From assembly GCA_002841275.1 (NCBI GenBank), contig PHET01000019.1, positions 1 to 64,000 of the forward strand: DNA of 64,000 nucleotides. The letters run 5' to 3'. A model generated the notes under the pieces. The model ran no database searches. It was not told the origin of the DNA and worked only from the letters and a program-made list of their open reading frames with translations. This stretch comes from Actinobacteria bacterium HGW-Actinobacteria-7. GTDB taxonomy: Bacteria; Actinomycetota; Coriobacteriia; Anaerosomatales; PHET01. Shown here in pieces: positions 11,387-21,708 of the stretch. The position numbers were made by a program, and so were the translations under genes. Each line of letters starts with the position of its first letter. The first letter of the stretch is position 1.

Positions 11387-12133
11387 CTATCCCCCGATAT
11401 CCGGAAGACGCACTTCGATGCCGGGAACGACCGATGACAGCCAGTTGGCGAGCAGGCCCAGTCTCCCGGTCGCGATGAGCAGGCCCACGACGACCAGCAG
11501 CCCGCCGGCGACCCGATTGATGGTCAACGAATGGCGCTGCAGCCAACGCATCAATCCTCGAAGGCGACCAAACAACACGGCAACTAGGATGAAGGGTATC
11601 CCCAGGCCCAACGAGTACATCACCAGCAGCAACGCGCCCTGTGAGACACTACCCGATGATCCCGCCATCGCCAGAATAGTTCCAAGAATCGGTCCGACGC
11701 ACGGCGTCCACCCAGCGGCAAAAGCCATGCCCATCACAAGCGAAGCGCCCTCCCCGAAGGCACGCGACTTCTCAAGATCCACTCGTGCCTCACCGTAGAG
11801 CCATGGCACCTTGATTATTCCGAGCATCAGGATGCCAAATGCGGCCACCGCCAGCCCGGCGATGACCTCGATGGTCCCGCGATACGCAGAGAGGAACTGG
11901 CCCAGAAACGACGCAGTGGCGCCTAGGGCAACAAACACCACCGAGAAACCGAGAACGAAGAGGAGTGCCGGAGAGAGGACCCTGCCCAGAGATGGGCGCT
12001 CATCGGCAAGTTCTGCAGTTGTGAGTCCGGTCATGAATGACAGATAGCCAGGAATCAGCGGCAACACGCAGGGAGAGAGAAAAGACAGCGTACCGGCTGC
12101 CAGTGCGATCAACAGTGCGGACATATCAGGCAT
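11387..12133 (-). CDS. ccdA: CcdA-like thiol-disulfide transmembrane protein
   Basis: This 248-residue protein has six predicted membrane helices and belongs to the CcdA/DsbD-beta family, which carries electrons from cytoplasmic thioredoxin across the membrane to extracytoplasmic thiol proteins, for example during cytochrome c maturation. The two active cysteines lie in helices 1 and 4 (LSFLSPCVLPLIPGY and GWTPCVGPILGT). The ATG at 12133 (MPDMSALL) was chosen because an AGGAG site is five bases upstream; eight further upstream codons lack such a site. Its promoter carries a perfect CsoR/CstR-type palindrome, and thioredoxin in this window has the same arrangement, so the two are probably co-regulated. 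Confidence 0.9.
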   Translation of the reverse strand: MPDMSALLIALAAGTLSFLSPCVLPLIPGYLSFMTGLTTAELADERPSLGRVLSPALLFVLGFSVVFVALGATASFLGQFLSAYRGTIEVIAGLAVAAFGILMLGIIKVPWLYGEARVDLEKSRAFGEGASLVMGMAFAAGWTPCVGPILGTILAMAGSSGSVSQGALLLVMYSLGLGIPFILVAVLFGRLRGLMRWLQRHSLTINRVAGGLLVVVGLLIATGRLGLLANWLSSVVPGIEVRLPDIGG

Positions 12134-12178
12134 GAAGACTCCTGGTCGACGACTCATCAGTGGTCAAACAACCACCGT

Positions 12179-12207
12179 AGCATACCCCATGGGGTATTTC
12201 TGCACAA
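12179..12207 (-). promoter_or_regulatory. ccdA promoter with CsoR/CstR-type operator
   Basis: On the minus strand a -35 TTGTGC (12207-12202) and a -10 TATGCT (12184-12179) are separated by exactly 17 bp. The perfect 16-bp palindrome ATACCCCATGGGGTAT occupies 12182-12197, filling most of the spacer and providing the first bases of the -10. The operator ends 49 bp before the ccdA start. A bound repressor would block RNA polymerase. The palindrome matches the form published for CsoR/CstR-family operators. The regulator is probably the tandem-domain protein at 19314-19907, an inference from the shared motif. Confidence 0.75.
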
Positions 12208-12235: not shown

Positions 12236-12457
12236 CTAGGACAGAAGCTCCGCATCGTAGCCAGCCGACTGGATAGCAGTGATCAGCTGAGGAACGGACA
12301 CGCGCTCATCGTCGAACACCACGGCGCTCAGACCGGTAGCGTGGTCGGTCTTGGACTCGACCACGCCGTCGAGTTCCGTAAGGGTCATGTCGACGAGCAT
12401 GGAGCATGAGCTGCAATGCAGGCCGGAAGTCGCAAAGCGGGCAGTTACCTGTGACAT
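12236..12457 (-). CDS. HMA-domain metallochaperone-like protein
   Basis: This 73-residue protein consists of a single heavy-metal-associated fold (beta-alpha-beta-beta-alpha-beta), as in CopZ/MerP. The metal site is GLHCSSC with cysteines 15 and 18, and the C-terminal helix segment (LITAIQSAGYDAELLS) is typical. It should bind a soft metal such as Cu(I), Hg(II) or Zn(II), or could serve as a thiol carrier. No P-type ATPase is adjacent. It lies just upstream of the ccdA promoter on the same strand, with the operator in the gap after its stop codon, so ccdA can be transcribed independently of it. Metal specificity cannot be fixed from sequence alone. Confidence 0.85.
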   Translation of the reverse strand: MSQVTARFATSGLHCSSCSMLVDMTLTELDGVVESKTDHATGLSAVVFDDERVSVPQLITAIQSAGYDAELLS

Positions 12458-17322: not shown

Positions 17323-18294
17323 TCAGTCCGGAGGAGGCAGCGGCGACACGGTTTCTCTACCCGGAAGTTGCACCACGATGATCGCGGCGATCACTAGAAC
17401 ACCGCCCATCAGCTGGGTCAATGAGAGCGACTCGCGAAAGAGCGCGAAGGCTCCGACGGCCGCGAGCATCGGCTCGATTGTTGATGCCACCGTGGCGTTG
17501 GTCGGAGGGATGTCCCGCAGCGCGAGCAGAAACGCCGAGAACGGAACGACAGTGCTCACCACAGCCATGAACAACACTGCTCCAGCCGTCTTCACGTCCG
17601 AGAAGACAGACAGTATCGCGGATGGCCCAAGCCAGAGCATCCAGAAGATCGATGCGAATCCCAGCCCGTAGACGAGCATGGTGTACGGCGTGAAACGGGA
17701 TGCGGCAACGCTGCCCATCAGCGAGTAGAAGGCGAAAAGCACCGCTGATGCCAGACCCCAGGCCAGACCCGCCGATGAGACAACCAAACCGTCGCCACCG
17801 AGAGCGCCCACCACGAATGCGCAGCCGAGCACCGATAATGCCACGCCGACGGGGAGCGCCCATGTGAAGCGATGGCCGAGAAACATCACTCCCACGATAA
17901 GAACCAGGATCGGAGCGAGGTACTCGAGCAGGATAGCCGTCGCAACGTTGGTGAGAGATATCGTCATGAAGTAGGTGAAGTGCACTCCCGCTAGGCCGAT
18001 CACGCCGAATGCGGCAAGAAAGGGCACGTCGGGTGCAGCTATCTTGAAAGCGCCGCGCCGGGTAACAAGCAGCCACAACACAAGAATCACGAAAGCCGAG
18101 ACGGCGCGGGCACCCGAGAGTACCGTAGGCTCAATCGCAATACCCAGAGGCGGCACGGGCCAGTGGGCCGTTGCATCCGATGCGGTTGTGAACAGCCACT
18201 TTGCGGTGAGTCCACCGCTCGCCCAGCAGGTCGCGGCCAGAAGCGCGAGCATATAGCCGCGCGCGGGACGAACCGGCCTATACGAATCCTGCAT
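17323..18294 (-). CDS. EamA/DMT-family transporter
   Basis: This 323-residue integral membrane protein has ten predicted helices in two EamA repeats (about residues 15-155 and 165-310), the drug/metabolite transporter arrangement. Such carriers export amino acids, nucleosides or drugs, or import small solutes; the substrate is not predictable here. The frame is open far upstream, but the ATG at 18294 (MQDSYRPVRP) has a strong GAGGAG site and overlaps the preceding CDF transporter gene by 17 bp. The longer upstream reading is just the other frame of that gene. Co-translation with the cation exporter suggests but does not prove related physiology. Confidence 0.85.
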   Translation of the reverse strand: MQDSYRPVRPARGYMLALLAATCWASGGLTAKWLFTTASDATAHWPVPPLGIAIEPTVLSGARAVSAFVILVLWLLVTRRGAFKIAAPDVPFLAAFGVIGLAGVHFTYFMTISLTNVATAILLEYLAPILVLIVGVMFLGHRFTWALPVGVALSVLGCAFVVGALGGDGLVVSSAGLAWGLASAVLFAFYSLMGSVAASRFTPYTMLVYGLGFASIFWMLWLGPSAILSVFSDVKTAGAVLFMAVVSTVVPFSAFLLALRDIPPTNATVASTIEPMLAAVGAFALFRESLSLTQLMGGVLVIAAIIVVQLPGRETVSPLPPPD

Positions 18295-19222
18295 CGATCT
18301 CCTCGGCGGTCTTCGCACGTTGATAGTCGTCGTAGGGCTCGAGGTGAACGATAGCATCGACAACCTGCCCGAACTGCTGGCAGAGCACCCGTTCGACGGC
18401 CTCGGCAATTGCATGGCCTTCAGCGACGCTGAGGGAAGAATCCACTTGGACGTGAAGATCGACGTAGACTTCCGCGGCCGATCCACGCGTCCGGATGTGA
18501 TGGCAGCCCTTCACCCCGTCCACGGTCTCCGCAATCGTACAGATATCCGGAGCCGGGATTCGCGCTGAGTCCGACAGGGTCGCGCTCGCCTGTCGAAACA
18601 CACCCAGCGCGGTGTAGACGATTGCACCCGCCACGAGCACGGCCACGATCGGGTCGGCTTTCGCGAAGCCCATTCTCACGAGCACCAGTGAGAACACAAC
18701 ACCTATGCTGACGAAGATGTCCGATGTCGTGTGATTGGCGTCAGCGATGAGGATCTCGCTCCCAAGTCGCTGCCCCGCACGCCGCTCCCACAGGGTCACG
18801 CCGATGTTGACCGCCAGCGTGACAAGCATGATGGCGAAAGACACGACACCGACGCGCGGAGGCGCGGCCCCTTGGGTCAACTCCGCGACAGCGCTCGAAC
18901 CGACTCGGTAGGCTGCGAGGAGCAGCATCGCGCCAATGGCCGCCGATGCATAGGTCTCGTACTTGCCATGCCCGTAGGGGTGATCCTTGTCCGCCGGACG
19001 AGCTGCCATGCCCATGCCAACAAGCCCAACGACATTGCTCGCACCGTCAAAGAACGAGTGGAATCCGTCTGCCTGCATTGCGGCCGAGCCGCTGGCCAGA
19101 CCCCACAGAAGCTTGGCGGCGGCCACCGCGATGTTGAGCACCAGGATCGCCCACAGTACGCGACGGATACCGCCTATGCGGCTCGCCCCTGCGCTGCCCT
19201 GCCCTGACTTGGTGTAACCCAC
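18278..19222 (-). CDS. cation diffusion facilitator (CDF) transporter
   Basis: This protein of about 314 residues has six membrane helices and a C-terminal cytoplasmic metal-binding domain (about 215-314), the CDF layout. Transport-site residues are in DGFHSFFD of helix 2 and DANHTTSD of helix 5, and the HPYGHGKYE loop is conserved. CDF proteins exchange protons for Zn, Fe, Co, Cd or Mn and expel the metal. I chose the GTG at 19222 because GAGGGG precedes it by about five bases; an ATG seven codons upstream is possible. It is divergent from the CsoR/CstR-type repressor, and the shared intergenic DNA holds a predicted operator, so the repressor may also control this exporter. Confidence 0.88.
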   Translation of the reverse strand: MGYTKSGQGSAGASRIGGIRRVLWAILVLNIAVAAAKLLWGLASGSAAMQADGFHSFFDGASNVVGLVGMGMAARPADKDHPYGHGKYETYASAAIGAMLLLAAYRVGSSAVAELTQGAAPPRVGVVSFAIMLVTLAVNIGVTLWERRAGQRLGSEILIADANHTTSDIFVSIGVVFSLVLVRMGFAKADPIVAVLVAGAIVYTALGVFRQASATLSDSARIPAPDICTIAETVDGVKGCHHIRTRGSAAEVYVDLHVQVDSSLSVAEGHAIAEAVERVLCQQFGQVVDAIVHLEPYDDYQRAKTAEEIDAGFV

Positions 19223-19242
19223 GGAGTCCCCTCGCACAACCA

Positions 19243-19271
19243 TTGCGGCAGATACCCCACGGGGGTACCAT
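19243..19271 (+). promoter_or_regulatory. csoR/cstR-type repressor promoter with operator
   Basis: On the plus strand a -35 TTGCGG (19243-19248) and a -10 TACCAT (19266-19271) are 17 bp apart. The spacer holds an imperfect palindrome, ATACCCCACGGGGGTAC (19252-19268), one base longer at the centre than the other two copies in the window. The repressor ATG at 19314 lies about 47 bp beyond the operator. Autoregulation is predicted. The same DNA also lies upstream of the divergent CDF gene, where it could act from the other side, although no good -35 is visible in that direction. Confidence 0.7.
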
Positions 19272-19313: not shown

Positions 19314-19907
19314 ATGCCCACAAGACCATTGCCAGCCACAGTCGGCGACGACACTGAGCGCAAGAAGATCATCAACCGCCTGAGACGCCTGGAAGGTCAG
19401 GTTCGCGGTCTCCAGTCAATGGTTGAGAGCCGTGCCGCCTGTGAGCAGGTATTGACGCAGGTCATGGCATGCAAATCGGCACTAAGCCAAGTGGCTATGC
19501 ATGTCATCGGTCATGCCATGAAGAGCTGTTTGGTGGATGAGACCCTCAGAGACCGCGGCGAGCTCATCGGCGCAGCGTTCGACGTCTACCTGCACTACCG
19601 CGAGCTAAGTGACGAAGCCTTCGCCGCGCCCAACACCACGCCTGCGACGCCGGAGAAGTTGCTTCTGCGGCTCAAGGAACTCGAAGGGCAGCTGTGCGAT
19701 GTCCAAGATGTCATCACTGCACCGTCGGACTGCGAGAGCGCGCTTCTTGGTCTGACTCGCGCAAGCTCCACCCTTAACGACATCTCGCTGACCATCCTTG
19801 GGCATGCCATGCAGGACTGCCTGATAGACGAGTGCGCTACGTCACGCGACGCGGTCATCGACCAAGCCATCCAGGTGTTTCTGCGCTACTCCTCCTGCGT
19901 AAGGTAG
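19314..19907 (+). CDS. tandem-domain CsoR/CstR-family transcriptional repressor
   Basis: This 197-residue protein contains two copies of the all-helical CsoR/FrmR (DUF156) fold, about residues 15-100 and 112-195; family members are normally single-domain, about 90-100 residues. Domain 1 has NRLRRLEGQVRGLQ with Cys43 and Cys72. Domain 2 has LRLKELEGQLCDVQ with Cys140 and Cys169. In both, the position four residues before the second cysteine, histidine in copper-sensing CsoR, is alanine (HAMKSC, HAMQDC). That pattern resembles the persulfide sensor CstR, so a sulfane-sulfur or thiol-stress signal is more likely than Cu(I); this is inference. Domain 2 is less basic in its DNA-contact helix. The gene follows an operator-bearing promoter and ends before a strong hairpin. 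Confidence 0.88.
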   Translation: MPTRPLPATVGDDTERKKIINRLRRLEGQVRGLQSMVESRAACEQVLTQVMACKSALSQVAMHVIGHAMKSCLVDETLRDRGELIGAAFDVYLHYRELSDEAFAAPNTTPATPEKLLLRLKELEGQLCDVQDVITAPSDCESALLGLTRASSTLNDISLTILGHAMQDCLIDECATSRDAVIDQAIQVFLRYSSCVR

Positions 19908-19992: not shown

Positions 19993-20316
19993 CTAGGACT
20001 CGAGGCCCAACTCACGACCCAGAGCGTCGGAGCTTCGAGCGCCCACGACTTGCGCGGTAATCTCGCCGTGCTCGAACTTGGCGATGGTCGGGATGCTCAT
20101 GATCCCGTACTTGACTGCGATGTCGCGCGACTCGTCGATGTTGAGCTTCACGAACTTCGCCGCCCCACCAACACGTCCGGCTAGCTTGTCGAGTTCAGGG
20201 GCGACCATCTTACAGGGGCCGCACCACGGTGCCCAAAAATCTACGATCACGGGGGTGTCCGAACCGATTACTTCGGCGTCCCAAGACTGCTCGGTAATAT
20301 CTAGCGCGCTGCTCAT
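19993..20316 (-). CDS. trxA: thioredoxin
   Basis: This 107-residue thioredoxin has active site WCGPC (Cys32, Cys35) and the conserved cis-Pro region SIPTIAKF. It reduces cytosolic protein disulfides and could feed electrons to the CcdA protein at 11387-12133. The ATG at 20316 (MSSALDITEQ) was chosen over a longer reading because a GGAG ribosome site lies five to six bases upstream. The promoter 50 bp upstream embeds the same palindrome seen before ccdA, placing this gene in the predicted repressor regulon. It is convergent with the repressor gene across the terminator. Confidence 0.95.
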   Translation of the reverse strand: MSSALDITEQSWDAEVIGSDTPVIVDFWAPWCGPCKMVAPELDKLAGRVGGAAKFVKLNIDESRDIAVKYGIMSIPTIAKFEHGEITAQVVGARSSDALGRELGLES

Positions 20317-20362
20317 GTGTTCTCCATCTCCGCCACATCGTTCAGCTTCCTGTACGAGCTCC

Positions 20363-20391
20363 AGTATACCCATGGGGGTATTCCGCGTCAA
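20363..20391 (-). promoter_or_regulatory. trxA promoter with CsoR/CstR-type operator
   Basis: On the minus strand the -35 TTGACG (20391-20386) and -10 TATACT (20368-20363) are near-consensus and 17 bp apart. The operator ATACCCATGGGGGTAT (20366-20381) sits in the spacer and shares the first bases of the -10, the same geometry as the ccdA and repressor promoters. It ends 50 bp before the trxA start. Repressor binding would exclude RNA polymerase directly. Confidence 0.8.
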
Positions 20392-20487
20392 CATGGCTAC
20401 ACTCCTTTCATACCCAGATCGCACTCGCGCCACAGGTTTACCCTTGAGCCTTGTATCATGGTGCCGAGGAGGAGGTGCGCACCGCAG

Positions 20488-21708
20488 ATGCCATTGATGT
20501 GGGCTTCGCTGATGATCGGTGCCGTCTTGGCGGGAGCGGCCGTCGTGGCGGTCATGGTGGCGCGCCCAGCGCTCGAGCCGGCTTTCGCGCTTGCTGGTGT
20601 TCTCGGCATGGGCGGATCGACATTCTGTCTCTTCCGCATTGCCATCACCTATCGCACTGGTGAGCCGGCATTGTGGGCATTCGCGTTCGTGCTGGCGGGT
20701 ACCGCTGGTGGGTACGCACTCGCATCGACGCTACTACACGCGCTCGCCCGACATCGCCCCCTTTCCCCTCTCCCCAGTGCTCTTCCCGATGATCCGGGCG
20801 CACCCGCGATCCTTGTAGTGGCCTGCACAGAGCCCGAGCACTATGAGCCAGCCGCTACAGCCCGCATGTTCGAGGCTCTGGCGTCAGAGGGCCTCCTGGA
20901 AGCGTCCATCGGCTTTCTGCCGTTCCTGTTCTTCGCGCAGAAGACACGCTATCGCGCGGTGGGCGGCATCAACCCCGCATATCAGCAGCTGACTGCAGTA
21001 TCCGAGAGGCTCGAGAAGACCATCAAGCGTGCGCGAGTGTCCCCCGTGCTGTGCTCGGGTCCCCACTCGCTCGAGGCGGCCGTGCTCCAAGCTGTCCGAG
21101 AAGGCCACCGCACGGTGGTTGTCGCCGAGCTTAGCGTCGGCGAGTCCCTCATCCTCGCAGGCGCCAAGCAGGCGCTGTCCAATCTGCGAATGAGCGAACG
21201 TGGAGTGTCTGTGACTCACACCGGTGTGTTGTGGTGCTCCGAGCGCGTTATAGGCATGCTGGCAGCTCGGGTCATGCGCTCCGCCACCGACGTCGCCACC
21301 ACTGGCGTGGTACTCGTGGGTCACGGTCAGCCCGATGAGATCGCAAGCAAGAATCCCCAGATGGATATCGATGAAACGGCCTTCCTCAGCAGGCTGAGGA
21401 TGACACTGCTGGATACAGGGCTCCAAGAAGCCAACGTGCGCGTCGCGTGGGCGGACTGGGGTGAGCCCGGTGTAACGACCACTGTGCGACATCTGGTCGC
21501 GCTGGGATGTACCCGGGTCATCGTGGAGCCCGCGGCGTTCCCGCTGGATACGATCGGAACACGTCTGGATCTGGAAGTCGCGGTCAGGCAGGCACGGGTA
21601 CAGGAGAACGCGACAATGGTCACGCTGCCCGCCTGGAGAGATGATCCGGCCGTGATAGAAGAGCTCCGCAGTCGAGTGGTCGACGCGCTCGCCGAACACA
21701 GCGTCTAG
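20488..21708 (+). CDS. membrane-anchored ferrochelatase-like protein
   Basis: This 406-residue protein has about three N-terminal hydrophobic helices (residues 1-85) and a C-terminal class II chelatase-like region. That region has features of HemH/CbiX-type enzymes: FFAQKTRYRAVGGINPAYQQL matches the ferrochelatase N-lobe pattern ending in a GG-x-x-P turn, the VVLVGHGQPDE strand places a candidate catalytic His near residue 279, and an acidic segment (TRLDLEVAV) near 360 is in the position of the second metal ligand. Ferrochelatases are usually soluble or peripherally bound, so a fused membrane module is unusual. Role in haem, cobalt or another tetrapyrrole insertion is undecided. The ATG at 20488 has AGGAGG upstream but with long spacing (about 12 bases). 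Confidence 0.6.
   Translation: MPLMWASLMIGAVLAGAAVVAVMVARPALEPAFALAGVLGMGGSTFCLFRIAITYRTGEPALWAFAFVLAGTAGGYALASTLLHALARHRPLSPLPSALPDDPGAPAILVVACTEPEHYEPAATARMFEALASEGLLEASIGFLPFLFFAQKTRYRAVGGINPAYQQLTAVSERLEKTIKRARVSPVLCSGPHSLEAAVLQAVREGHRTVVVAELSVGESLILAGAKQALSNLRMSERGVSVTHTGVLWCSERVIGMLAARVMRSATDVATTGVVLVGHGQPDEIASKNPQMDIDETAFLSRLRMTLLDTGLQEANVRVAWADWGEPGVTTTVRHLVALGCTRVIVEPAAFPLDTIGTRLDLEVAVRQARVQENATMVTLPAWRDDPAVIEELRSRVVDALAEHSV

Follow-up and report, generated by a model that had tools for sequence, protein, structure and literature searches.

A fused CsoR-family tandem with unlike halves, probably a CstR-like thiol/sulfur-switched repressor, in Anaerosomatales-type Coriobacteriia

CsoR-family proteins normally carry one domain per chain. 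Single-domain homotetramers define the CstR proteins (for example, those of Staphylococcus aureus and S. pneumoniae (PDB 7MQ1-3) and YrkD of Bacillus licheniformis), which combine the CsoR fold with a Cys-x28-Cys dithiol, have a residue other than His at the ligand position four residues before the second cysteine (-4; Asn in S. pneumoniae CstR) and regulate a local cst/sqr cluster, with rhodaneses as typical members of their regulons (PMC10318464). One crystal structure, 7MQ3, is that of the CstR double mutant C9A N55A, with Ala at -4 (PMC8879271). A related sulfur regulator, TTHA1953 of Thermus thermophilus, is likewise a single-domain CsoR-family protein with two cysteines, controls a scattered sulfur-metabolism regulon that includes Sox pathway targets, has the operator TACnnTACnnnnGTAnnGTA and does not switch, under reducing conditions, in response to Cu, Ni or Co (PMC10318464). 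For the copper CsoR of Streptomyces lividans, which has the ligand His and a Tyr preceding the first cysteine and an operator of the form ATACCCC-N3-GGGGTAT, the DNA contacts (an RLxR motif and a Gln) have been defined by mutagenesis: DNA binding is undetectable in R57A and in Q81A and strongly weakened in R54A (PMC3902906).

Here we describe a CsoR-family gene in a window of 64,000 nucleotides (the whole stretch of DNA analysed; contig PHET01000019.1 of Actinobacteria bacterium HGW-Actinobacteria-7), which encodes two such domains in one chain:

19314–19907, + strand: gene of the predicted tandem CsoR/CstR-like repressor (open reading frame with ATG, 197 aa; PF02583 twice)
19344–19607, + strand: N-terminal CsoR domain (aa 11–98), the predicted DNA-reading half, with the RLRR motif, Q49, C43, C72 and A68
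19638–19904, + strand: C-terminal CsoR domain (aa 109–197), the predicted sensor half, with C140 and C169 retained, RLKE and G146 in place of RLxR/Gln, and C195 at the C terminus

Pfam PF02583 matches two stretches of the protein (108.7 bits; cut-off 22.8), and in a genome search the two halves scored separately reach 77.6 and 37.7 bits, as expected from the fusion of two domains claimed in a preliminary description of this DNA; no other PF02583/CsoR-family protein was found in the 2.53 Mb genome. AlphaFold models, each of one chain only, comprise six helices (that is, two CsoR three-helix units; pTM 0.80 for the window protein and 0.79 for a second tandem, from genome G036) and suggest that the two domains are packed in a defined arrangement. 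Foldseek matched the fold to InrS, CstR and CsoR with weak E-values and target-normalised TM-scores of 0.83 (InrS) and 0.72–0.76 (CsoR/CstR), which speak to the fold, the method being unable to match one chain of two domains to a dimer in a crystal. The protein has the PF02583 domain and all-helical fold of the superfamily, but two domains in its chain instead of one.

The cysteines of the window protein are at positions 43, 53, 72, 128, 140, 169, 174 and 195 and the histidines at 63, 67, 94 and 164. Each half has two cysteines in the CsoR/CstR spacing (C43-x28-C72 and C140-x28-C169; that is, 29 residues apart, as in CstR) and Ala at -4 (Ala68 and Ala165), where copper sensors have the His of their Cys-His-Cys ligand set. 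This arrangement had been noted before, and it withstands alignment: in a gap-free alignment with the canonical CsoRs L107, L119 and L122 (His at -4), the nearest His is H67 at -5, and given this offset of one residue, no alignment shift brings the ligand His back. As 7MQ3 has Ala at -4, Ala is compatible with the CstR fold at this position. The missing His is, however, no property of the tandem as such. Across 49 single-domain orthologs (on named contigs from Coriobacteriia, several labelled Anaerosomatales), the -4 residue is Ser in 45 and Ala in 4, and Ser is also found there in the two other tandems described below, so the absence of His is ancestral in the group and not part of the fusion. 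The residue preceding the first cysteine points in both directions: it is Asp in 41 of the 49 orthologs (Glu in 6) and in the C half of the window protein, a likeness to S. pneumoniae CstR that sets them apart from copper CsoRs with their Tyr, but in the tandem N halves it is Ala, Glu or Gly, which counts against a CstR-like reading. Of the remaining cysteines, a third one at the C terminus recurs in 44 of the 49 orthologs and in all three tandems (Cys195 in the window protein). Cys53, previously proposed to add redox potential, is indeed present, but the two other tandems have Ala in its place, as do nearly all of the aligned single-domain relatives; it is private to the window protein and probably of no importance.

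Homologs are present in 64 of 69 genomes of the order (Anaerosomatales-type Coriobacteriia), almost all of them single-domain and mostly 50–65% identical to the tandem N half. These orthologs (loci L050–L099) share with the tandem the locus order rpoN, CDF, regulator, thioredoxin, as well as the operators, the cysteine pair, Ser/Ala at -4 and the C-terminal cysteine, and differ in not being duplicated. Full-length tandems were found only in the genome of the window (G000), G036 and G028, that is, in three genomes from three families. The same architecture in two independent genomes, at 42–48% identity to the window protein, argues that the tandem is not an artefact. Searches of 400 genomes from the class and 397 from the phylum found no further tandem, and a scan of GTDB contigs, which alone covered fusions of other origin outside the Actinomycetota, returned a single full-length tandem, L096, which corresponds to the copy in G036. 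Literature searches found no paper describing a tandem CsoR family, and the idea of a widespread known family was rejected. One further candidate, G651, was rejected as two adjacent separate genes. An unfused analogue of the tandem comes from another family of the Actinomycetota: L237 has two adjoining separate csoR-like genes (1905–2180 and 2214–2489), both with His at -4, and helix 1 of the second gene product is degenerate (KNIEGRLRSI). In a tree of about 90 aligned columns, in which deep forks are poorly resolved and characterised CstRs were left out, the N halves of the three tandems group in a single clade (97/87), as do their C halves (99/97). This pattern indicates that the fusion probably arose once; as the three tandem genomes belong to different families, the simplest reading is one fusion with subsequent loss or transfer. 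End branches of the C halves measure 1.1–3.0, versus about 0.1 for most single-domain proteins, and these long branches make the exact placement of the C halves unsure.

The two halves differ in the residues predicted to contact DNA, as assigned by homology to R54, R57 and Q81 of S. lividans CsoR (PMC3902906). Equivalents of RLxR and Gln are retained in all three N halves and in 49 of 49 single-domain orthologs, whereas the corresponding positions of the C halves hold RLKE/G, HLHG/E and RLHD/R, lacking the R57 and Q81 equivalents in every case. The first helix follows the same division, with net charges in the N and C halves of +3 versus -4 in G036, +4 versus -5 in G028 and, by hand count, +4 versus about -3 in the window protein, so that the less basic first helix reported for the second half extends to the other tandems. 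We infer from these sequences that the second half is defective in DNA binding, which upholds the earlier suggestion of an asymmetric pair with one DNA-binding half and one probable signalling half. Such losses, together with the much faster evolution of the C halves, could also be expected if the second domain were a decaying copy with no independent function and the whole chain acted like its single-domain ancestor through inter-chain contacts between N domains, a possibility compatible with either signal discussed below. We consider this quite unlikely: the three diverged tandems share both cysteine pairs and Cys195 without exception, the CLI helix end and a C-terminal KYxxC(V/L)R-type tail are conserved in them, and AlphaFold predicts a well-packed second domain.

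Candidate operators were found around the tandem gene and elsewhere in the window (operators are given without strand), and all regulatory links proposed here are drawn from DNA motif and synteny:

19252–19268: predicted autoregulatory operator ATACCCCACGGGGGTAC, of the ATACCCC-N3-GGGGTAT type, between the tandem gene (45 nt upstream of it) and the divergent CDF gene
18278–19243, − strand: CDF cation-efflux gene (start uncertain), divergent from the tandem gene and a conserved neighbour
20366–20381: predicted operator ATACCCATGGGGGTAT, 50 nt upstream of the probable thioredoxin start
19993–20433, − strand: thioredoxin, predicted target (probable start 20316)
12182–12197: perfect predicted operator ATACCCCATGGGGTAT, 25 nt upstream of ccdA
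11387–12157, − strand: CcdA/DsbD-type membrane thiol-disulfide protein, predicted target

The 17-bp form ATACCCC-N3-GGGGTAT lies upstream of the regulator itself in 48 of 49 orthologous loci and usually occurs once or twice per genome; the five genomes in which no homolog was detected (G037, G048, G050, G053 and G062) all lack it. A 16-bp form, ATACCC-N4-GGGTAT, is present in 67 of the 69 genomes (reversed-pattern control, 0), and the exceptions, G050 and G053, have neither this site nor a detected homolog. Order-wide, the sites fall into two classes, with a 3-base centre at the regulator's own promoter and a 2-base centre at most targets. The genome of the window has 17 matches to the palindrome ATACCC-N4-GGGTA (mostly single sites counted on both strands; reversed-pattern control, 0), which lie upstream of the thioredoxin (20366), ccdA (12182), a rhodanese-thioredoxin fusion (contig C1, 186004), an SBF-family transporter (C6) and an MCP (C28), while the position of others is less clear (C3, C22 and elsewhere). 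Thioredoxin is adjoined by a site in most of the regulator loci L050–L099, and in other genomes thioredoxin, ccdA and the SBF transporter recur as site neighbours, as do a membrane sensor-like protein and a ferredoxin-like one. Of 30 rhodanese-thioredoxin loci, 29 have a site with at most one mismatch, placed 48–121 nt upstream of the start. By operator, then, rhodanese control as in CstR is predicted both in the window's genome and across these loci, although the sites of the tandem are scattered over the genome where CstR regulates a local cluster. Two further genes border the operators in the window: just upstream of the ccdA operator, a small HMA-like protein (12236–12457, − strand) that carries an HCSSC motif, and a ferrochelatase-family (PF00762) membrane-anchored protein (20317–21708, + strand), divergent from the thioredoxin across the 20366 operator and conserved in the order.

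The rhodanese-thioredoxin fusion (G000, contig C1, 186057–186755; L003, 1554–2252) is very probably a selenoprotein. Its reading frame contains an in-frame TGA (EFFTDS-U-PTC), which about 50 genomes of the order have likewise as TGA and which is followed about 20 nt 3′ by a hairpin with compensatory changes (21 cells, 0/500 shuffles), and selA is present in the window's genome; Rfam gave no match at this gene.

The 17-bp operator has the form TAC-N9-GTA that is known from the copper-CsoR operators of actinomycetes (PMC3902906), so the DNA site alone cannot tell sulfur from copper. The operator search gave no sign that the tandem controls a copper efflux ATPase: at the four best matches to P1B-type ATPases in its own genome, the best site scores 9–11/14, versus 13–14/14 at the predicted sites. 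Given this and the ligand residues, we rejected a copper sensor. A sensor of Zn(II) or another metal, bound by the cysteines and a nearby His/Asp and mainly controlling the divergent CDF exporter, would agree with the conserved position of that gene and of the operator between it and the regulator, and the best NCBIfam match of the CDF protein is a zinc exporter, albeit below cut-off; moreover, FrmR, which is no metal sensor in the cell, responds to metals in vitro (PMC5016687). Yet the ligand His is absent from both halves and from every one of the 49 orthologs, at -5, 17 of the 49 have Tyr, Phe or Gln and two of the tandem N halves have Tyr, and the predicted targets are mostly thiol/sulfur genes, with no good sites at the P1B ATPase loci, which makes metal sensing decidedly improbable. 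The CDF gene is possibly under the shared 19252 operator nonetheless.

Ligand residues, rhodanese and thioredoxin targets and the absence of copper targets together fit a sulfur-type switch best, in keeping with the CstR-like chemistry first proposed from the missing copper His, and the main rival is a wider redox signal. Under this rival, the protein would be a general thiol-redox or electrophile switch (responding to oxygen, disulfide stress or aldehydes) that forms plain disulfides, as TTHA1953 does with Cu(II)/H2O2. Indeed, TTHA1953 is freed from DNA through its two cysteines by H2O2 and Cu(II), and NaHS is without effect in vitro (PMC10318464), which counts against a sulfane-sulfur reading, and the thioredoxin, CcdA and Sec-thioredoxin targets would fit disulfide repair in an anaerobe. 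On the other side, thioredoxin is also a standard persulfide-removing enzyme (PMC9774590) and the most consistent distant target is the rhodanese; we regard the general switch as unlikely.

We therefore favour, as the probable reading, a CstR-like repressor switched by thiol or sulfane-sulfur chemistry, with a DNA-reading half and a sensor-only half fixed in one chain. It is filed as CstR-like and not as CstR because it is a tandem chain of two fused domains, the second without DNA contacts, and not the single-domain homotetramer that defines CstR; it is presumed to work like CstR. The sequences show the domains, the residues, the common origin of the tandems and the operators with their adjoining genes, and from these the persulfide signal, the crosslinks, the oligomer and repression itself are inferred. 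In the proposed scenario, an ancestral single-domain CsoR-family gene was duplicated and fused once, after which the first domain would have continued to read DNA and the second would have become a fixed non-DNA-binding partner and sensor with an intact dithiol. Two chains could then assemble into a pseudo-tetramer of the CsoR kind, which would contact DNA through fewer elements than a homotetramer does and bind the ATACCCC(N2-3)GGGGTAT operators that the single-domain relatives also use. The signal, reactive sulfane sulfur (that is, persulfides or polysulfides) or a thiol oxidant related to it, would cross-link paired cysteines (C43–C169 and C140–C72, if the domains pair within the chain), weaken DNA binding and thereby derepress a thiol/sulfur programme comprising the rhodanese-Sec-thioredoxin protein, thioredoxin, CcdA, the membrane transporter, the tandem gene itself and perhaps the divergent cation exporter. 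More tentatively, the tandem may fix the asymmetry of a CsoR-family tetramer, its DNA-reading and its sensor-only halves having set positions, with sulfur crosslinks between unlike domains within one chain and DNA contact on one side, a possibility to which we give somewhat less than even credence.

In homotetrameric CsoR/CstR proteins, single subunits are hard to alter, which makes it hard to test what number of dithiol sites has to react and by what route their state reaches the DNA face. The tandem, a natural covalent version whose second half has lost its DNA-contact residues and kept its cysteines, would separate sensing from DNA reading and open these questions to simple mutagenesis. If the proposed reading is true, the asymmetric tandem would be a natural test of how the dithiol chemistry of one subunit reaches the DNA binding of another, and the predicted order-wide regulon would tie a CstR-like regulator to a rhodanese-thioredoxin protein that very probably contains selenocysteine.
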